From Edaphobacter sp. 4G125 (GTDB lineage: Bacteria; Acidobacteriota; Terriglobia; Terriglobales; Acidobacteriaceae): a stretch of 64,000 nucleotides of DNA. Made by a program: the position numbers and the translations under genes. Below, piece by piece: positions 48,637-58,072 of the stretch. How positions within the stretch are numbered: the stretch's first letter is position 1; every line of letters begins with the position of its first letter. The notes below the pieces were generated by a model. The model worked only from the letters and a program-made list of their open reading frames with translations, was not told the origin of the DNA and did no database searches. Location of the stretch: NCBI RefSeq assembly GCF_014274685.1, contig NZ_CP060393.1, positions 2,415,501 through 2,479,500 of the forward strand, read 5' to 3'.

Positions 48637-49326
48637 TTATTGGACATGTTTTGCAGCAAGAAATTGATTAATCTCTTTAGCCATCGCCTGGGCCGCTAGA
48701 GTGCTGTTTCTTCCAAGCTCCCAGAGAGGTCCCCAGAATTTAGGGTGCAGCGCAACATGGGATAGAAACGACGGCATTCGCATCTGTCCACGTGGGTCGA
48801 TGAACTCATTCAAGTCAGGCAGTTCTGCTTCCGATGCATCCGATACCGCCTTGAAACAAAAGAAGGGCACCTCTCGTATCAGGGCGAGACGAGCGATCGT
48901 TGCGGCTTCCATATCGACCAGTGCGGCTCCGTAGCTTTGGCGGAGCCTACCTTTCTCATTGGCATCTGCCACATGAGTCGCAGTCGCCAACGTGATTGGA
49001 TCGCCCTCTGCGGCGGAGAACCTTTCTCCGGTCCCCACGTCAATGACCCGAGAAGGGCGGTAGCATTGTCTCGTCTTAATGCTCTTATCCAGCGCGCCAG
49101 CCCATCCTACAGAGATCAGCAGATCGAGCTTCCCAAAGGATTCTGCTGCTGCCACACTCCGAATGGCCGCCTGCGCGCCCATGCCACCGCATACTGCAAC
49201 AAGATCGTTCTTGTTGCGAGAGGTCTTCCATAGAGTAAGACCCTTGCCCCCCAATGGCTGCTTCTTCCAACCACGGACTAAGGGCTTCAATTCGCCTGGC
49301 AACGCAGCGATAATTCCTATCCTCAT
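48637..49326 (-). CDS. hpnG: Hopanoid-associated phosphorylase (nucleoside phosphorylase superfamily)
   Basis: A 229-residue protein. The purine-nucleoside-phosphorylase fold is visible in MRIGIIAALPGELKPLVRGW, VAVCGGMGAQAAIRSV, LLISVGWAGAL and the substrate motif VDMEAATIARLALI. HpnG removes adenine from adenosylhopane to give ribosylhopane (or its phosphate) in bacteriohopanetetrol synthesis. The start overlaps the end of hpnA by 4 nt (ATGA), so the two are translated together. The hopanoid neighbours support this over a general MTA nucleosidase. Confidence 0.85.
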   Translation of the reverse strand: MRIGIIAALPGELKPLVRGWKKQPLGGKGLTLWKTSRNKNDLVAVCGGMGAQAAIRSVAAAESFGKLDLLISVGWAGALDKSIKTRQCYRPSRVIDVGTGERFSAAEGDPITLATATHVADANEKGRLRQSYGAALVDMEAATIARLALIREVPFFCFKAVSDASEAELPDLNEFIDPRGQMRMPSFLSHVALHPKFWGPLWELGRNSTLAAQAMAKEINQFLAAKHVQ

Positions 49327-50333
49327 AGCTGTGACCTGTCGAAGGCAGGAGCGTAACCATGCTTCACAAACCAGTCGATCGCAGAACGGAGCGCGTGATA
49401 GATCGGCAACACGCAGAAGCCAAGCTCGCGTTCGGCCCGCGCGGAGGAGGCGAACATCATCTTCTTCCCCATCCTGACAGCTTCAACGGTCGCTCGCGGC
49501 TCCTTTTTCAGGAGGCGTCCCGTAATCGTCTCATCGAAGAAGGCAAACCCCATCGCAACGGCGTGAGGAACTTTCTTCGTGGGCGAGGGCAAACCCGTGA
49601 TGGCGGACATGCGATCGAGAATCTGTTTCAGGGTGAGGTTCTCTCCTCCAAGGATGTAGCGCCTGCCCGGAGTTCCGTGGTCGAGAGCAGCAAGATGCAT
49701 ACGCGCAACTTCTGAGACATCGACAAGATTTAATCCCGTATCCACATAGGCGGGAAACTTACGATTGAGAAAATCAACGATGATTCTTCCTGTCGGAGTC
49801 GGCTTGATGTCGCCGGGGCCGATAGGAGTTGTCGGGTTGAGAATGATCACATGCTGACCAGCAGCTGCTGCCTTGACCGCCTCCTGCTCGGCAAGAAACT
49901 TTGATCGTTTGTAGTGGCCAATCATCTCTGCCAGAGAAACAGGAGTCTCTTCATCGACGACCGAACCATCGGATTTGAACCCCATGGTTGCGACGCTGGA
50001 GGTGTAGATGATGCGTCCGATTCCGCTCTTCTGAGCGAGTTTCAGAAGTTCTCGCGTTCCATCGACGTTGGCGGCATACATCTCCTGCGGGTCGCGGACC
50101 CACAGCCTATAGTCCGCTGCTACATGGACCAGAGCATCGCACCCCTGGAGCGCGGATTGAAATTCTTCCGGCCGCCGCAGATCTCCTGTGACGAGATCGG
50201 CATTCAAACCTTCCAGAGAATTGAGATTGCTGGTCTTACGCGTGAGGAGTCGAAGCTGAGCTCCTGCGGCGGCATACTGACGCGCCACATGCGATCCCAC
50301 AAAGCCAGTCGCTCCAGTAATAAATGCGCGCAC
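49323..50333 (-). CDS. hpnA: Hopanoid-associated sugar epimerase
   Basis: A 336-residue SDR-extended enzyme with the Rossmann motif MRAFITGATGFVGSHVARQY and the active-site Tyr-Lys (IGHYKRSKFLAEQ). IIYTSSVATMG precedes it and NPTTPIGPGDIKPTPTGRII follows. This matches HpnA of hopanoid clusters, proposed to act on the ribose-derived side chain or its glycosyl group. It sits between an unknown gene and hpnG, which it overlaps by 4 nt. Confidence 0.87.
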   Translation of the reverse strand: MRAFITGATGFVGSHVARQYAAAGAQLRLLTRKTSNLNSLEGLNADLVTGDLRRPEEFQSALQGCDALVHVAADYRLWVRDPQEMYAANVDGTRELLKLAQKSGIGRIIYTSSVATMGFKSDGSVVDEETPVSLAEMIGHYKRSKFLAEQEAVKAAAAGQHVIILNPTTPIGPGDIKPTPTGRIIVDFLNRKFPAYVDTGLNLVDVSEVARMHLAALDHGTPGRRYILGGENLTLKQILDRMSAITGLPSPTKKVPHAVAMGFAFFDETITGRLLKKEPRATVEAVRMGKKMMFASSARAERELGFCVLPIYHALRSAIDWFVKHGYAPAFDRSQL

Positions 50334-50379
50334 GTGCTATCTTTCCCCGGGTCGTCGGGTGCTTAGATTCGGAAAGAAT

Positions 50380-50826
50380 TTAGTCCAGCTTTTCTGGCTC
50401 AATCTGAATGTTTTTCTCGCCAGCAGCTTTCTTTTCCCAATATTTTTTTACCCAGGCTTCAAAGGTTTTTCCAGCTGCATTGTCGCGCCCTGTAAAGGCG
50501 AGTGCAGCGATATCCGCGTAGCTTATGTTGATCTTGTTACGGTCGTTGATTGGAATAACGCGAACAGACGAGTCTTCGAGCGAAGTTCCGGAACGACGAT
50601 CAAAGAGATAACCTTCTACCTTCGAACCATCCTTCCGGGTTATCGTGACATCGCCACGATAATCGAAGGCTTTTTCCAATGCCTCACGAATCTCTGCATC
50701 GGTCGCGAGGGCAGGAATCCAACCTTCAAGGTTCTCCTTTTCGCGACCTGCGATGGTTTCGAGTTCATCGGCATTGTGTTGCCGCAGCTGCTCAATCTTG
50801 AGATGCTCTTGTTGCTCTGTTGCCAT
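50380..50826 (-). CDS. Unknown protein in the hopanoid operon
   Basis: 148 residues from ATG 50826, 5 bp after the hpnH stop; AGGAG lies just before it, inside the hpnH end. The N-terminal 60 residues are helical and charged. Residues 65-125 form a compact beta domain (FDYRGDVTITRKDGSKVEGYLFDRR, VRVIPINDRNKINISYADIA). The C-terminus is a Lys/Glu-rich helix (KKYWEKKAAGEKNI). No signal peptide or membrane helix is seen. The family is not recognised. Its tight fit between hpnH and hpnA suggests a role in hopanoid side-chain making or in coordinating it. Confidence 0.75.
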   Translation of the reverse strand: MATEQQEHLKIEQLRQHNADELETIAGREKENLEGWIPALATDAEIREALEKAFDYRGDVTITRKDGSKVEGYLFDRRSGTSLEDSSVRVIPINDRNKINISYADIAALAFTGRDNAAGKTFEAWVKKYWEKKAAGEKNIQIEPEKLD

Positions 50827-50831
50827 CGTGC

Positions 50832-51965
50832 TTAATCTCCTGAAACCGGCTGAAGTTCGTCGCTGGATGAGCCCTGAATCTGTACCAGCGGATTGGTATG
50901 AGCAGTGGGTTTCCATTCATTCAACAGCTTCTGCGCATCTGCATCCGGATAGAGCGGCTTGAGCATAAACTTCTTCGCTGTCTCGATAAATCCACCGAGC
51001 GAACTGAAGGCATAATCAACTGCCGAAGCCTCGTGACCGGAATGAACCATGCAGTTGGCACACTGCGGATTGCCGCTCTTGGCGCCGTAGTTTTCCCAGT
51101 TGGTCGTCTCCATCAGCTCCTGGAAGGTATCGGCGTAGCCGTCCTGCAGCAGGTAGCATGGCTTCTGCCAACCGAAGATCGAGAAGGTCGGCATGCCCCA
51201 CGGTGTGCACTCAAAGTTCCGCTTACCCATTAGAAACTCGGAGAAGAGGGGATGCGTATTAAACTCCCACGACTTCTTGCGGTTCGAGAGAATCGCACGG
51301 AAGAGTCGTCGTGATTTTGCCTTGCCGAGGAAGTGGTTCTGGTCTGGGGCCTTGTCATAGGTATATCCCGGGGAGACCATCATGCTTTCGACACCGGCAG
51401 CCATCAACTGATCGAAGTGGCGACGCACGCTGTTCGGATCAGCACCATCAAAGAGTGTCGTGTTGGTGGTTACACGGAAGCCTGCGGCTACAGCAGCACG
51501 GATTCCTTCCATTGCGAGGTCGTATCCGCCTTCGCGGCATACCGAGAAGTCGTGATGTTCGCGTTCTCCATCAACGTGCACTGAGAAGGAGAGATACTTC
51601 GATGGCTTGAACAGGTGCAGCTTCTCTTTCAGCAGGAGCGCATTAGTGCACATGTACACATATTTTTTGCGCGCTACCAAGCCGGCTACGATCTCCGGCA
51701 TCTTCGGATGCAACAGAGGCTCACCACCGGGAATGGAAACCATCGGGGCCCCGCACTCTTCAACTGCCCGGAAGCACTCTTCGGGAGTCAGTTCTGCCTT
51801 AAGGATGTGCGCCGGATACTGAATCTTCCCACAGCCTGCGCAGGCGAGGTTGCAGCGAAAGAGCGGCTCCAGCATCAGCACCAAGGGATAACGTTTACGC
51901 CCCTTCAGCTTCTGCGTCAGTACATAACTTGCGACCGTCCATGCCTGTGAAACTGGTACTGCCAT
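50832..51965 (-). CDS. hpnH: Adenosyl-hopene transferase HpnH (radical SAM)
   Basis: A 377-residue radical-SAM enzyme that joins the 5'-deoxyadenosyl group to diploptene, the first step of C35 hopanoid side chains. The iron-sulfur motif is in PLFRCNLACAGCGKIQYP (CxxxCxxC). SIPGGEPLLHPKMPEIV follows, and the C-terminal domain contains more Cys residues (NPQCANCMVHSG). The length fits HpnH. It lies 29 bp downstream of shc in the same operon. Confidence 0.93.
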   Translation of the reverse strand: MAVPVSQAWTVASYVLTQKLKGRKRYPLVLMLEPLFRCNLACAGCGKIQYPAHILKAELTPEECFRAVEECGAPMVSIPGGEPLLHPKMPEIVAGLVARKKYVYMCTNALLLKEKLHLFKPSKYLSFSVHVDGEREHHDFSVCREGGYDLAMEGIRAAVAAGFRVTTNTTLFDGADPNSVRRHFDQLMAAGVESMMVSPGYTYDKAPDQNHFLGKAKSRRLFRAILSNRKKSWEFNTHPLFSEFLMGKRNFECTPWGMPTFSIFGWQKPCYLLQDGYADTFQELMETTNWENYGAKSGNPQCANCMVHSGHEASAVDYAFSSLGGFIETAKKFMLKPLYPDADAQKLLNEWKPTAHTNPLVQIQGSSSDELQPVSGD

Positions 51966-51994
51966 TCGGGGTTTCCTCCCAAAAAATCTATAGT

Positions 51995-54019
51995 TCAGCT
52001 AGCCTGTTCGGCTGCTTCACGCTCCATAGCGCGTTGGTATGTCGTTAGAGACAGCAAAGGAAAGTACTGCTTATACAGGTGGTATCCCAGATAAAACACT
52101 CGAGGGAATCCAGTACCGGTGTAATAGCTCTCCCCATTTCTTCCGGGCACAAGCTCGTCCCAGCTTCCATCTTCGTGCTGGCGCTCTGTCAGCCAGCGAA
52201 CTCCCTTGGCGACTGAATCAGAACGTGTGTCTCCGGCAGCGAGCAGTCCGAGAAGAGCCCACGCTGTCTGCGAAGGAGTACTGGGGCCGATCCCGCGCTG
52301 ATTGGGATCATCATAGGTTCCACAAGTCTCTCCCCATCCACCGTCGGCGTTCTGGACCGAACGAACCCACTCAGCAGCTTGCTGGATGGCCGGCTCGTGA
52401 TTCCAGATTCCCATCGCCTCCAGACCGCGGAGAACGAGGAAAGTACCGTAAAGGTAGTTCACTCCCCAACGGCCAAACCAGCTTCCATCAGGTTCCTGTT
52501 CCTTCAGGATGAACTGGATTGCCTTTTCAACTCTGGGATCTTTGCGCGTAAATCCATATTGCGCCAGCATCTCCAGCATTCGCCCCGTGATATCCACTGT
52601 TGGCGGGTCAAGCATGGCGTTATGGTCGGCAAATGGGATGTACTGGAAGATCATCTTTGTATTGTCTTTATCAAAGCTGGCCCAGCCGCCGTTTTTGCAC
52701 TGCATGGCCCAGATCCAGTTCAGGGCACGCTGGCAAACCTCGTATTGATAACGCTCTCGAGGATTATCGACACAATTCAGAGCAAGAAGAACCTGACCGG
52801 TATCATCGACATCCGGGTAGAACTCGTTGTTGAACTCGAAGTACCATCCACCGGGCTCAACGTTTCGAACCTTCTCTGCCCAGTCGCCTTTTGTCCGAAC
52901 CTCTTTGGAGAGAATCCAATCGGCCGCCTTCAGCATTCGGGGATCATTCCTGTCAACGCCAGCCTCTCCTAGGGCATACATCGCCTGTGCTGTATCCCAC
53001 ACCGGCGGGAAGCAGGGCTGCATCCGGAAGGTTGGGGTGGGATAGTCCAGCGTTCCTTCAGGGCAATCGATTCCTAGCTTTTCGAACTCGTCCATTGCGC
53101 GAATCAGCTGCGGATCATCAAAGGATCGACCGAGATATCGGAGCGCCACAATCGAGTTCAGCATGGCGGGGTAGATCGCGCCCAGGCCATCCGATTTCTC
53201 GAATCGCTCCAGCATCCATTTTTCGGCCTTTCGGATCGCAACTTTGCGCAGAGGGCGGATATGGACCCGTTCAAACCAGTGCGTTAACCGATCGAAGAAG
53301 AGAAAGAAGTTTCGCCAACTGATGGGGGTCTTCGTATCCCAACGCAGGTGCAGATTGGCATTCTGACGCCCTCCGACAAAAAGCTCGTCGATTCCCTGTT
53401 CCGGTGGGAGCTTTTTAAAAGGCTTTTTGGCGTAGATGATGGAGAGCGGGACGAGAATCCCACGAGACCAGGAAGAGATCTCGTAGATGTTGAAGTAGAA
53501 CCAGTTTGGAAAGAGTACGATCTCCGGCGGAATCGCGGGAACCGCGTCATAGTCGTACTGGCCTAACGCGCACAGATAAATCTTCGTGAACGTGTTGCAT
53601 TCAATTACTCCGCCATGCGCGAGGACCCATTCTCGCGCTTTGACCATCAAAGGATGATCTGCCGACCATCCCATTAATTTGAGCGCAAGGTACGACTTGA
53701 CTCCATAGTTGATATTGGAGGGGCCGCCGGGATAGAGACTCCATCCACCGTCTTCATTCTGGTGACGGAGGATCTCGTTCATGGCCCGCTGCATTTTGCC
53801 GGGATCCCCGGTGCCCAGCAACGTGTGCATGAAGATGTAGTCGGCTTCGAGCATGACGTCTGCTTCGAGTTCGCCACACCAATATCCATCGGGATGCTGC
53901 TGATCCAACAACCAATCCTTAGAGCGCCGAATACTATCGACGACCTGATCCAACCCAAGATCCAATCGACCAAAACGGGGCTGTGTCGGAGTTTGCGGGT
54001 TCCCTGAAGTTTTACTCAT
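51995..54019 (-). CDS. shc: Squalene-hopene cyclase
   Basis: A 674-residue class II triterpene cyclase that turns squalene into hopene. The catalytic DxDD is present as PDVDDTGQVLLAL. Several QW repeats are visible (QNEDGGWSLYPGG, QNADGGWGETCGTYDD, QHEDGSWDELVPGRN). The GTGFPRVFYLGYHLY C-terminal stretch is typical. It is a monotopic inner-membrane enzyme. The gene lies between ispH (43 bp) and hpnH (29 bp), so isoprenoid precursor supply and hopanoid formation are in one transcript. The family length is usual (630-720). Confidence 0.95.
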   Translation of the reverse strand: MSKTSGNPQTPTQPRFGRLDLGLDQVVDSIRRSKDWLLDQQHPDGYWCGELEADVMLEADYIFMHTLLGTGDPGKMQRAMNEILRHQNEDGGWSLYPGGPSNINYGVKSYLALKLMGWSADHPLMVKAREWVLAHGGVIECNTFTKIYLCALGQYDYDAVPAIPPEIVLFPNWFYFNIYEISSWSRGILVPLSIIYAKKPFKKLPPEQGIDELFVGGRQNANLHLRWDTKTPISWRNFFLFFDRLTHWFERVHIRPLRKVAIRKAEKWMLERFEKSDGLGAIYPAMLNSIVALRYLGRSFDDPQLIRAMDEFEKLGIDCPEGTLDYPTPTFRMQPCFPPVWDTAQAMYALGEAGVDRNDPRMLKAADWILSKEVRTKGDWAEKVRNVEPGGWYFEFNNEFYPDVDDTGQVLLALNCVDNPRERYQYEVCQRALNWIWAMQCKNGGWASFDKDNTKMIFQYIPFADHNAMLDPPTVDITGRMLEMLAQYGFTRKDPRVEKAIQFILKEQEPDGSWFGRWGVNYLYGTFLVLRGLEAMGIWNHEPAIQQAAEWVRSVQNADGGWGETCGTYDDPNQRGIGPSTPSQTAWALLGLLAAGDTRSDSVAKGVRWLTERQHEDGSWDELVPGRNGESYYTGTGFPRVFYLGYHLYKQYFPLLSLTTYQRAMEREAAEQAS

Positions 54020-54062
54020 CGACGACTCTCAAAAAGCGCGAGAAACGATTGATTGCAATCCC

Positions 54063-55076
54063 TTACTGCGCTGCCGGTGGAGCGGATGCAATCGCCTGAA
54101 CGATCTCAGGCGGAAGTCCAAAGCGAACATTTTCGGGCATGACCTCGACCTCTTCGACCGAGCTATATCCCCTCGCCTGGAGATAATTGACGACTTCCTG
54201 AACCAGAACTTCTGGAGCCGAAGCTCCGGCCGTGACTGCAACCGTGCTCACTCCTTCCAGCCAGGAGGGCTGAATATCTTCAGCTTTATCGATCAGGTAG
54301 GACTTTGTGCCTAGGTTCTGTGAAACCTCTACCAATCGGTTGGAGTTGGAACTGTTTCGCGAGCCAACGACGAGAACAACATCCGCCCCGTGAGCGACGT
54401 TCTTCACTGCCGTCTGGCGGTTTTCAGTTGCATAGCAGATGTCCTGAGCATGAGGTCCGACGATATTCGGGAACTTCTTCTTCAGAGCATCGATCATGTA
54501 TTTGGCTTCATCCAGTGAAAGCGTCGTCTGGGTAAGATAAGCCACTTTGTTTGGGTCGGGAACGACGAGCGCTTCGACCTCTTCGACGGTGGAAACCACC
54601 TGTGTAACTTCAGGAGCTTCGCCCTGGGTTCCCTCCACTTCCTCGTGATCCCGGTGGCCAACCAGAACCAGAGAGTAACCCTGCTTTGCGAATTTAATCG
54701 CCTCGACGTGCACCTTCGTAACCAGCGGACAGGTGGCGTCGACAACCTTCAGATTACGATCTTTCGCGCGCTGTCGTACGGCTGGAGAGACGCCGTGTGC
54801 TGAATAGATCACGCGGGCGCCCTCGGGCACCTCATCCAGCTCGTTAACGAAGATCGCTCCCTTCTTCGCTAGATCATCAACGACGTAGCTGTTATGTACG
54901 ATCTCCTTCCGAACATAGATCGGAGCGCCAAAGGTCTCTAGGGCGATTCGAACGATATCGATCGCGCGCACAACTCCTGCACAAAAGCCTCGGGGCTTGA
55001 GGAGGAGGACACGTTTGGTCGTTGTGGAAGGGCCGCTCTCGGTTACAACAACAGGGTCGAGGGTCGTAGTGGTCAC
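54063..55076 (-). CDS. ispH: 4-hydroxy-3-methylbut-2-enyl diphosphate reductase
   Basis: The last enzyme of the MEP isoprenoid pathway, 337 residues. The three cysteine ligands of the iron-sulfur cluster are in KPRGFCAGVVRAIDIV, VVDATCPLVTKVH and AQDICYATENRQTAV. The catalytic His and Glu are in YSAHGVSP and TGAS-like regions. It is the first gene of the hopanoid operon and 104 bp separate it from the metallothionein-like gene. The N-terminal 25 residues are extra relative to many IspH proteins, so a later start is possible, though none has a better site. Confidence 0.95.
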   Translation of the reverse strand: MTTTTLDPVVVTESGPSTTTKRVLLLKPRGFCAGVVRAIDIVRIALETFGAPIYVRKEIVHNSYVVDDLAKKGAIFVNELDEVPEGARVIYSAHGVSPAVRQRAKDRNLKVVDATCPLVTKVHVEAIKFAKQGYSLVLVGHRDHEEVEGTQGEAPEVTQVVSTVEEVEALVVPDPNKVAYLTQTTLSLDEAKYMIDALKKKFPNIVGPHAQDICYATENRQTAVKNVAHGADVVLVVGSRNSSNSNRLVEVSQNLGTKSYLIDKAEDIQPSWLEGVSTVAVTAGASAPEVLVQEVVNYLQARGYSSVEEVEVMPENVRFGLPPEIVQAIASAPPAAQ

Positions 55077-55180
55077 CTGATAAGTATACCGCGTTAAAGG
55101 GCAAGGTGCTGAGATGGAACCACATCTGATTCTGAGGTGATCTTTCTGAATCGATTACCCTTCCGTCTGTTGCGTGGATA

Positions 55181-55327
55181 TCAACCAGCGCAATCAGGAT
55201 GCCCACAATTACATTTCAGAGTCATAAACTTCCGCGAATCTTCACATTGGGAGGAGCAGTACTTGCTTCCCGGCTGAGCCATACAGCTGCAACCCTGCTT
55301 TGCACATTTCTGGGGAGTATTTGACAT
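55181..55327 (-). CDS. Metallothionein-like Cys-rich protein (48 residues)
   Basis: This short gene encodes MSNTPQKCAKQGCSCMAQPG, then KYCSSQCEDSRKFMTLKC, then NCGHPDCAG. It has eight Cys residues (8, 13, 15, 24, 28, 39, 41, 46) and one His in the pattern CxxxxCxC, YCSxxC, CxCGHxxxC. That pattern is typical of bacterial metallothioneins, which bind Zn, Cd or Cu in the cytosol. The ATG follows GGAGGG by 8 nt. A perfect 8-bp inverted repeat at 55339-55367 overlaps the leader and partly the ribosome binding site. No SmtB-type repressor gene is adjacent. Function is inferred from the Cys pattern. Confidence 0.8.
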   Translation of the reverse strand: MSNTPQKCAKQGCSCMAQPGSKYCSSQCEDSRKFMTLKCNCGHPDCAG

Positions 55328-55338
55328 AGCCAGATCCC

Positions 55339-55367
55339 TCCGAAGGACCTTTATTGGTACCTTCGGA
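55339..55367 (-). promoter_or_regulatory. Leader hairpin before the metallothionein-like gene
   Basis: TCCGAAGG and CCTTCGGA form a perfect 8-bp stem, extended by ACC/GGT with one bulged base. On the minus strand the 3' arm runs straight into the GGAGGG ribosome binding site. It may terminate recN transcription or control translation of the next gene. Confidence 0.45.
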
Positions 55368-55413
55368 TGCCCTTTCGGAGGAGAGGGATGTGCGAATAAA
55401 GAACGAGAAGGGT

Positions 55414-57105
55414 TTATCGGCTGGTTTGGAGCAGATGCTCGGCGTGCTTCAGACTGGTTTCGGTGAGATGTTCCCCGCTGAGCATCCGGGCAATTTCGCG
55501 AGCACGTTCGGTTTCTTCCATCTTGCGAATCCCGGTTTGAGTCCTTCCGCGCTTCTCTTCTTTCTCAATAAGGAAATGATGATCGGCAAATGCCGCAATT
55601 TGTGGAAGATGCGTAATGCACAACACCTGTTGCCCACGTGCGAGCGCCTTGAGCTTCTTCCCCACCGCTTCCGCAGCTCGGCCGCCGATGCCGATGTCAA
55701 TCTCGTCGAAGACGAGCGTTCGGGGAAGCAGGCTCTTTCTCTTGCGTGCAGGTCCCTGCTTCCCTTCCTCCACCGTGACCTTCAGGGCCAACAAGACCCG
55801 GGACATTTCGCCACCAGAAGCGATTTCGTCCAGCGGCTTGAGCGGCTCACCCGGGTTGGTGGCAATTCTATATTCGATCCGGTCCCAACCATGGGAAGTC
55901 CACGAGGGCTGATCCTGTTCAGGATTGACCGCTACCTCAAAGCGCGCGTTCATAGCCAGATCATTGATCTGGACAACGGCCAGCTTCTGTAAACGGCTAG
56001 CCGCCTCTTTGCGGAGATCTGTAACCTTCACTGCCGCTTCCTGATAATTCGCGGCGTCTTTTTGCAGCTTCGATCTTAACTTTGTGAGAACGGCATCCCG
56101 GTTTTCGACCTCTGACAGCTTTCGCATCGATTCGGCTCCGAAAGAGATGACTTCAGCGAGGGTCTGGCCATATTTGCGTTTGAGTCGATCGAGCGCCGCT
56201 AGTCGATCCTCGATCTCTTCCAATCGGCCAGGAGATGCATTCACGTTCTCAGCAAACTCTCGAACCTCTGCATTGATGTCTTCGACGGTAGCTTTCGCCG
56301 CAGTCAGTTGTTGCACTGCGCCGACAAAACGAGAATCGAACCTTGCAAGATCTTCCACATGCTTTAGAGCGGCTCCAAGTGTAGTTTCGGCCGAACTTTC
56401 ACTCTCATACAGCAGTTCATGCACGCTCATGGCTGCGGTATATAGCTTCTCGGAGTTCGCAAGCACTCTTTTTTCGGTTTCGAGTTGGGCATCCTCGTCC
56501 TCGGAGGTGAGCTGTGCTTGCTCAATCTCGTTTGCCTGAAATCGCCACAGGTCGGCCATACGCAGGCGATCCTGCTCGTCGGCCTCCAGCTCTGCCAGCT
56601 TCGTGGTTGTCTCTCGCCATGCGGCATGGGCCTCAGCAATAGCATCCGTCGATATCTCCGCAAAACGATCGAGCAACATCCGCTGTTGCGCCTGATCGAA
56701 GGCACCCATGGTTTCGCCTTGCGTGTGTATTAGCGCCAGTTCCGGAGCGAGTTGGCGAAGCACGCTGACGGTCGCGGGCTGATTGTTGATGAAGACCCTG
56801 CCCTTTCCGTTTGCAGCAATTTCGCGGCGAATGAGAATCACATCTGTTTCCGGATCAATGCCATTTGCTTCGAGAACCGACAAGGCCCCTGGGGTCATCT
56901 CGAAGACACAGGAAAGGACTGCTTTCTCCTCTCCGTGCCGAACCACATCAGAAGAAGCTTTGCCCCCGAGGAGCATCTGGAGAGCGTCGATCAGAATCGA
57001 CTTTCCGGCACCCGTCTCTCCTGTCATCAGGTTGAGCCCTGGCCCGAAAGAGGCGACCGTCCGGTCGATGACAGCATAGTTTTCTGCGCGCAATTCGAGC
57101 AGCAT
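55414..57105 (-). CDS. recN: DNA repair protein RecN
   Basis: 563 residues from ATG 57105 (MLLELRAENYAVID, the family start, after GAGAGGT); a longer frame from 57231 is not family-like. It is an SMC-like protein of double-strand break repair. Walker A is GETGAGKS and the Walker B region is RTLVFDEIDIGIGGRAAEAV. The coiled-coil arms lie between about 150 and 370. The signature IASGGEMSRVLLAL and VLCITHLPQIAAFADHHFLI come at the end. The gene is divergent from tolQ. Confidence 0.94.
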   Translation of the reverse strand: MLLELRAENYAVIDRTVASFGPGLNLMTGETGAGKSILIDALQMLLGGKASSDVVRHGEEKAVLSCVFEMTPGALSVLEANGIDPETDVILIRREIAANGKGRVFINNQPATVSVLRQLAPELALIHTQGETMGAFDQAQQRMLLDRFAEISTDAIAEAHAAWRETTTKLAELEADEQDRLRMADLWRFQANEIEQAQLTSEDEDAQLETEKRVLANSEKLYTAAMSVHELLYESESSAETTLGAALKHVEDLARFDSRFVGAVQQLTAAKATVEDINAEVREFAENVNASPGRLEEIEDRLAALDRLKRKYGQTLAEVISFGAESMRKLSEVENRDAVLTKLRSKLQKDAANYQEAAVKVTDLRKEAASRLQKLAVVQINDLAMNARFEVAVNPEQDQPSWTSHGWDRIEYRIATNPGEPLKPLDEIASGGEMSRVLLALKVTVEEGKQGPARKRKSLLPRTLVFDEIDIGIGGRAAEAVGKKLKALARGQQVLCITHLPQIAAFADHHFLIEKEEKRGRTQTGIRKMEETERAREIARMLSGEHLTETSLKHAEHLLQTSR

Positions 57106-57247
57106 ACCTCTCGGCCTCAAGGAAGGATGTACGCCGAGCATAGCAAAACCCGCAGTCCTGTGCTTACACACTGAGGAATCAAGATGATGCACCACGGAAG
57201 ATGCTCCCCGCTGCGCCAGTGCTTCGTCCAACGATTTACACTACCTG

Positions 57248-58072
57248 TTGGTGGACAAAATAACTATGGTCTGGACCTTAGCCCTCGCACTTCACTTCCT
57301 CCAGGAAGACGCAGCCGTTCCTCCCACTTCGACCAGTTCTTCCGCTCTTGCGGAGATGATTCACAACAGCGGCCCGGTCGCTTTTACGGTCCTGGTTCTT
57401 CTGCTGCTGGCGAGCATCTTTTCCTGGACGATCATGCTCTCGAAATGGTCGAGCTTCGGTAAGGCCGATAAACAGAGCAAGCGGTTTCTCCGCGCCTTTC
57501 GCAAATCGAGCCGGCTGAGCGAAGTTGCCACAGTTGCGGAACAGTTCCGCCCCAGCCCTCTGGTCTCGGTCTTCAACGAGATTCATGATGAATATCAACG
57601 CCAGAATGGCGGGCGCGGACTTCCGCGGAATGGTGTGGCGCTGGAACGGGCTGCTGCAACAGCCTCCAGCGAAGCCCTGACGATGATGGAGTCGCGCATG
57701 ACCTGGCTGGCGACGATCGCGGCAATTGCTCCCTTTATCGGGTTATTTGGAACCGTATGGGGAATCATCGATGCTTTTCATGGTCTGGGTACGGCCGGTG
57801 CAGCGACACTTCGGGCGGTGGCTCCTGGCATCTCTGAAGCTCTGATTACAACCGCCGCGGGTCTGGTGGTCGCGATTCCGGCTGTTATTGGTTACAACCA
57901 GCTGACGGCACGGCTCCGCGAGTTCGGTTCGCGCATGGACGATTTTGGCCGGGAGCTGCTGAATGCGATTGAAAATGCAGCGATGCTTTCACCAGGACAA
58001 GCGCCGCAGGCATCTGCTCCGACATACGCGCCAGTTGAGGAGCCGCAACCGCCCCGCCGGAGAGGCTTTTAG
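57248..58072 (+). CDS. tolQ: MotA/TolQ/ExbB proton channel protein
   Basis: 274 residues from GTG 57248; the ATG at 57263 is an alternative and neither has a strong site. It has three membrane helices: about 40-60 (PVAFTVLVLLLLASIFSWTI), 155-180 (TIAAIAPFIGLFGTVWGII) and 195-220 (GISEALITTAAGLVVAIPAV). The helix 2-3 pattern is the MotA/TolQ/ExbB signature, and the charged C-terminal tail is Pro/Gln-rich. It forms the proton channel of a Tol or Ton complex with the next gene. It is the first gene of tolQ-tolR-tolA-like. TolQ rather than ExbB is chosen because tolB and pal follow in the cluster. Confidence 0.92.
   Translation: MVDKITMVWTLALALHFLQEDAAVPPTSTSSSALAEMIHNSGPVAFTVLVLLLLASIFSWTIMLSKWSSFGKADKQSKRFLRAFRKSSRLSEVATVAEQFRPSPLVSVFNEIHDEYQRQNGGRGLPRNGVALERAAATASSEALTMMESRMTWLATIAAIAPFIGLFGTVWGIIDAFHGLGTAGAATLRAVAPGISEALITTAAGLVVAIPAVIGYNQLTARLREFGSRMDDFGRELLNAIENAAMLSPGQAPQASAPTYAPVEEPQPPRRRGF

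Follow-up and report, generated by a model that had tools for sequence, protein, structure and literature searches.

The stretch of Edaphobacter sp. 4G125 DNA analyzed here (64,000 nucleotides [nt]; hereafter, the window) carries on its minus strand an open reading frame (ORF) of 48 codons that lies between recN and ispH, with all three genes running in the same direction and an 86-nt gap separating recN from the ORF (Table 1). Its product, MSNTPQKCAKQGCSCMAQPGSKYCSSQCEDSRKFMTLKCNCGHPDCAG, is 48 amino acids (aa) long and contains eight cysteines. We scanned ten neighboring ORFs (49.3 to 60.7 kb), which encode an epimerase, a 178-aa protein, a radical SAM/DUF3463 protein (which we take to be HpnH-like), a squalene-hopene cyclase, LytB/IspH, RecN, ExbB, ExbD, TonB, and a mandelate racemase-type enzyme; the 178-aa protein had no Pfam match at E ≤ 1e-5. 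A divergent smtB-type repressor, which is a trait of the smt operon, was absent among these ten ORFs, so that the original prediction of a gene with no metal-sensing repressor adjacent to it was borne out for this interval. The epimerase, radical SAM/DUF3463, and squalene-hopene cyclase genes (49323 to 54019, minus strand) adjoin ispH and look like a hopanoid gene cluster.

Table 1. Positions of genes and of sequence and leader elements at the recN-ispH interval (window coordinates)
Feature	Position	Strand	Remarks
48-aa SmtA-like metallothionein ORF	55181..55327	minus	ATG 55327-55325, stop 55183-55181 (stop included)
Shine-Dalgarno GGAGGG	55336..55341	minus	basis: sequence
Box 1 of bipartite element, CACATCCC	55385..55392	minus	read as -35 box
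Box 2 of bipartite element, GGCATCCGA	55363..55371	minus	read as -10 box
8-bp stem, TCCGAAGG...CCTTCGGA	55339..55367	minus	stem of the original prediction; 5' arm overlaps box 2; 8/8 pairs in 2/12
Short hairpin GGUCC-UUCGGAG-GGAUC	55333..55349	minus	5/5 pairs in 10/12 most similar leaders, with compensatory changes
recN, upstream neighbor, same direction	55414..57231	minus	synteny
ispH (lytB), downstream neighbor, same direction	54063..55076	minus	synteny

At a threshold of E ≤ 0.001, the 48-aa protein has homologs in 55 of the 62 genus (Edaphobacter-like) genomes searched, and these usually lie between recN and ispH; 44 of the 55 genomes have a single match. Among genomes sampled more widely, homologs were found in 212 of 398 from the taxonomic family and, by profile search, in 45 of 297 from the phylum. 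The homologs of Edaphobacter modestus and E. aggregans are 94% and 85% identical to the window protein, respectively. More specifically, recN and ispH both flank the gene at 29 of the 35 loci L001 to L035 (in which three genomes appear twice); at the remaining six, the retrieved sequence lacked one or both flanks, in some cases because the contig ends. Outside the genus, 20 loci of the same family had both neighbors in 6 cases, recN only in 1, ispH only in 1, and neither in 12. One locus, L046 (1250 to 1644, plus strand), carries two metallothionein-like genes in tandem, ~90 nt apart, with the two-box element described below preceding the first only.

Alignment of 68 homologs revealed that C8, C13, C15, C24, C28, C39, C41, and H43 are invariant and that C46 is present in at least 90% of sequences; the pattern used for ORF extraction demanded the seven invariant cysteines and did not demand H43 or C46. 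Conservation of the Cys pattern in orthologs, on which the original prediction had been made to depend, thus holds across all 68 homologs, with seven of the cysteines demanded by the extraction itself. Every locus returned by the homology searches as a metallothionein match passed the seven-Cys pattern, except L036 and L037, the loci being the best-scoring matches rather than all matches. We left out L036 and L037 (not metallothioneins), duplicate upstream sequences, and second copies of the same genomes from two collections. At least eight cysteines were present in 47 of 48 distinct proteins, the exception being L004 with seven (L004:1501-1644), in which the last Cys is lost (the protein ends CGHPEWFH) and the short hairpin of Table 1 still has 5/5 pairs. 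Because homologs occur in 55 of the 62 genus genomes, His43 is invariant, and Cys46 is so widely retained, the 48-aa gene is real and more than a chance ORF.

To which family does this protein belong? The top Pfam family for the window protein was PF02069 (Metallothio_Pro), at 11.1 bits versus a curated cut-off of 33, and a search of its own genome with PF02069 returned no matches. Of the 68 members, 51 matched PF02069 at E ≤ 1 (best E, 0.00063), and no NCBIfam family matches the window protein. The gene had been described as easy to overlook and is so indeed, falling below the Pfam cut-off and having no NCBIfam match, yet being present in the 212 family genomes noted above. The best PDB match of the homolog profile was SmtA (1jjd), which was weak (E, 0.16), and direct profile comparison with SmtA by hhalign gave a probability of 90%, an E-value of 1.6e-6, and 37% identity over 41 columns. 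Three stretches correspond in the alignment with Synechococcus SmtA (1JJD; PF02069): C-x4-C-x-C at the start, the YC-x3-C pair, and C-x-H-x2-C at the end. In contrast to SmtA, the window protein lacks the second Cys of SmtA's CAC, has an extra Cys (C39), scores below the Pfam cut-off, and has no smtB-type neighbor; presumably, SmtA's last Cys is also absent from it. Thus, the ligands and the SmtA profile alignment support the earlier assignment of a metallothionein-like protein with eight cysteines, in the form of an SmtA-like subfamily that lies below the Pfam cut-off, and the protein is most likely an intracellular Zn-binding one.

Judging from the SmtA alignment, Cys8, Cys13, Cys24, and Cys28 probably form a first, zinc-finger-like site, and Cys39, Cys41, His43, and Cys46 probably form a second, with Cys15 as an extra ligand. 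By analogy, C8, C13, C24, and C28 would take the role of the cysteines that form site A in SmtA. The zinc-finger fold of SmtA is reported to form upon filling of site A (PMC10612145). We also weighed whether the protein could instead be a small zinc finger of the YCSxxC treble-clef or FCS type with a structural or regulatory function, needing one or two Zn only for folding and exerting its effect through contacts with nucleic acids or proteins instead of storing metal. As to the GATA-like zinc-finger fold of SmtA-type metallothioneins, the AlphaFold model was middling (pLDDT 79.7, pTM 0.54); a fold search with it returned no match at E ≤ 0.001 and three at E ≤ 10, and a second comparison, with three chains only, gave nothing useful. 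An FCS zinc finger (2w0t) was among the three PDB fold matches, with a nonsignificant E of 8.9; the window protein shares the [YF]CSxxC knuckle of such fingers as its own YCSxxC motif; and 44 of the 55 genus genomes with a match carry the gene only once. However, eight cysteines plus a histidine in 48 residues exceed what one finger needs, the window protein having more cysteines than FCS-type fingers, and the SmtA alignment spans all of the metal-binding stretches. We consider a zinc finger of this kind unlikely and retain the assignment to an SmtA-like Zn-binding subfamily.

Upstream of the gene lies a conserved bipartite element with the consensus rCATCyy-N14-GCATCynA, the boxes being 21 bp apart. 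[ACG]CATC followed by GCATC at 20 to 22 bp was present in 34 of 48 distinct leaders (at 21 bp in 29 and at 22 bp in 5) and, within the genus, two boxes were present in 33 of 43 leaders. As CATC and GCATC were the search criterion, we judged conservation from the other columns. Among the 29 aligned leaders with 21-bp spacing, box 1 is followed by a pyrimidine in 29 and by a further pyrimidine in 28, and GCATC is followed by C or T in 27, with A as the third base in all 29; the bases between the boxes vary and are not conserved. A fixed-spacing pattern derived from these same leaders gave 11 matches in 21 genomes versus 1 for a reversed control, and 8 of the 11 precede this gene. Fourteen of the 48 leaders lack two boxes at 20 to 22 bp, 10 of these being within the genus, and among 20 further loci of other genera, two such boxes were found in 1 (L123). 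Four of these 14 leaders (L008, L013, L044, and L065) make up a separate upstream class, in which the motif GTACAAT is common to all, with GGCACTTCGGG after it in three. GCATC was also found 25 to 60 nt upstream of 9 of 25 metallothionein genes of other genera versus 4 of 41 window ORFs with a Shine-Dalgarno sequence, an enrichment that is suggestive only.

Box 2 starts 31 to 54 nt before the start codon. Because this distance is only 31 to 34 nt in six leaders, the simplest reading is that the two boxes represent the -35 and -10 boxes of a promoter belonging to the gene itself, separated by 16 bp and recognized by a non-housekeeping sigma factor. This bipartite promoter would then lie within the 86 nt that separate recN from the ORF and would probably be read by an alternative (ECF-type) sigma factor; the spacing of the motifs suggests a leader of ~20 to 40 nt. 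The main rival to this reading is that the boxes are a direct-repeat operator for an unlinked regulator, with CATCY recurring after 21 bp (two helical turns). In its favor, the box cores are near-identical direct repeats two helical turns apart, and the exact element has a single occurrence in its own genome. In contrast, the position of box 2 in the six leaders leaves little room for a downstream promoter, and a gap of 16 bp between boxes of 6 bases resembles that of a promoter. An operator thus appears possible but rather doubtful, and we continue with the promoter reading.

Searches for a regulon of the two-box element, by patterns and by a sequence model, yielded no second convincing target. 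The six other own-genome matches of the element's sequence model all overlap mechanical ORFs. The 19 sites inspected around other matches (from ~117 model and 3 pattern matches) all overlap a mechanical ORF of at least 60 codons on some strand, which counts as weak evidence in such a genome. Two of the 19 sites precede a long ORF, namely, L107 and L103. At L107, the ORF starts 5 nt after the site, which is too near for a promoter. At L103, in another genome of the genus, the two-box match lies 135 nt before a 302-aa ORF, making it a possible second target. Separately, GGAAC-N14-19-GCATCC has 33 matches in the window's own genome versus 12 for the reversed pattern, a hint that GCATCC may serve as an ECF -10 box there.

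A metallothionein of Pseudomonas fluorescens Q2-87 (PflQ2 MT) resembles the window gene in being a bacterial metallothionein without an adjacent metal-responsive regulator (PMC7387436). Two predicted promoters are reported 594 and 922 nt upstream of PflQ2 MT, of which the farther one is active and its activity rises in stationary phase (PMC7387436). Unlike in PflQ2 MT, the promoter-like element of the window gene starts less than 70 nt from the start codon.

The original prediction had focused on an 8-bp stem (arms at 55367-55360 and 55346-55339) that was said to end in the GGAGGG site and to be a possible terminator of recN or translational switch. The eight pairs are present, the 3' arm includes the first GGA of the GGAGGG site, and the region from 55300 to 55413 folds better than its own shuffles (z, -3.45; 0/200). 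This strong local fold favors a terminator or switch, as do the 8/8 pairs that L006 also displays. However, among the 12 most similar homologs, 8/8 pairs were found only in the window and L006, with 3 to 6 pairs in the other 10. Moreover, the terminator scan reports no site there, and the stem is not a terminator because no T-run follows it. The 5' arm also overlaps box 2, so that the stem would lie largely outside a transcript starting several bases after that box. We regard a recN terminator or switch as very improbable; the 8-bp stem seems to reflect a chance match between a promoter box and the ribosome site. The expectation of a hairpin conserved with compensatory changes therefore failed for the 8-bp stem (2/12) and was upheld for the shorter one (10/12, in the most similar homologs only).

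The short hairpin, a 5-bp stem closing a 6- to 8-nt loop that ends in GGAG, was defined after inspecting the same 12 leaders, which had been picked by a protein identity of at least 69% (next homolog, 58%). All 5 pairs were present in 10 leaders, whereas L041 had 4 and L040 had 3 (57/60 pairs in total). When 5' flanks were swapped among species, 50.6 ± 1.7 pairs were obtained and 57 was reached in a fraction of 0.0005 of 20,000 swaps, which ignore relatedness. Similarly, the same swap without L033 and L042 gave 41.0 ± 1.7 pairs versus 47/50 observed (fraction, 0.00025). Shuffled flanks gave 32.3 ± 3.1 pairs versus 57, with 0/5,000 reaching that value. Of 29 window ORFs with GGAG that were chosen mechanically, 1 had 5/5 pairs, as did 1.3% of 689 GGAG sites in the window. 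Compensatory changes are evident in the stem: pair 3 is U-A in six leaders and C-G in five; pair 2 is G-C, G-U, A-U, or C-G (G-G in L040); and pair 4 is C-G, U-A, or U-G, with L041 read in a shifted register. In a tree built from recN and ispH (14 loci; ispH alone for one), L004 and L006 are sisters, with a weak support of 0.524, and two doubly changed pairs distinguish them.

Predicted folds depended on the putative transcription start. When transcription was taken to begin 5 or 7 nt downstream of GCATCC, the leader formed AGGUCCUU-CGG-AGGGAUCU, the core of which is the short hairpin; at distances of 0 or 3 nt, another stem prevailed, which uses part of the 5' arm of the 8-bp stem. As the compensatory changes support, the leader of the window gene and of its most similar relatives would fold into the 5-bp hairpin and place the ribosome site's GGAG in the loop, and the hairpin may thereby moderate or gate the start of translation.

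We also considered that the short hairpin is a functionless by-product, in which upstream pyrimidines pair with GGAGGG by chance and ancestry. Several observations agree with this explanation, including that the hairpin was defined on the leaders in which it was counted and that the stem is broken in 2 of the 12 (L040 and L041). Ribosome-site pairing was 0.48 versus 0.60 in site-keeping shuffles, i.e., the site is not more paired, and leader energies were only slightly better than those of shuffles (mean z, -0.74). None of 35 more distant leaders with GGAG had 5/5 pairs, and the 12 leaders do not form a clade on the recN+ispH tree, in which two hairpin-less loci, L009 and L012, cluster with L002 and L041. 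The short hairpin, if it is a feature at all, is thus one that only the most similar homologs share. In contrast, changes on both sides in three of the five pairs, the low swap fraction, and the incidence of 10/12 leaders versus 1/29 window ORFs all argue against a by-product. We rate the by-product explanation as a serious contender that falls somewhat short of even chances, and the reading that we carry forward is that the short hairpin may tune translation.

CsrA is an obvious candidate reader of a GGA in a hairpin loop. We rejected it, as PF02599 was found in 0 of 62 genus genomes (and in 3 of 14 control genomes). In addition, no Rfam leader or riboswitch matched the interval from 54000 to 57500 of the window at the gathering score.

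Considered jointly, an intracellular SmtA-type Zn-binding protein, an alternative-sigma promoter of its own, and a 5-bp hairpin that moderates translation make up the account to which we give somewhat better than even credence. The gene itself, the conservation of its ligands and of the two-box element, and the compensatory changes in the hairpin are observed; the metal, the sigma factor, the start site, and any influence of the hairpin are predictions. In the open-licence literature, we found no paper on an Acidobacteria metallothionein like this one, its promoter, or its leader. The gene is mostly of a known kind, and what it adds is a metallothionein-like gene without an adjacent metalloregulator and with two small, testable putative control elements, namely, a GCATC-box promoter and a ribosome-site hairpin. 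A more far-reaching proposal, which we consider improbable at present, is that this metallothionein is run without an adjacent metal-sensing repressor by the combination of a dedicated alternative promoter and a covarying ribosome-site hairpin. In that case, the hairpin may be opened by metal, by the zinc-finger-like metallothionein itself, or by another RNA-binding protein, and the amount of the metal store would be set at the RNA level.
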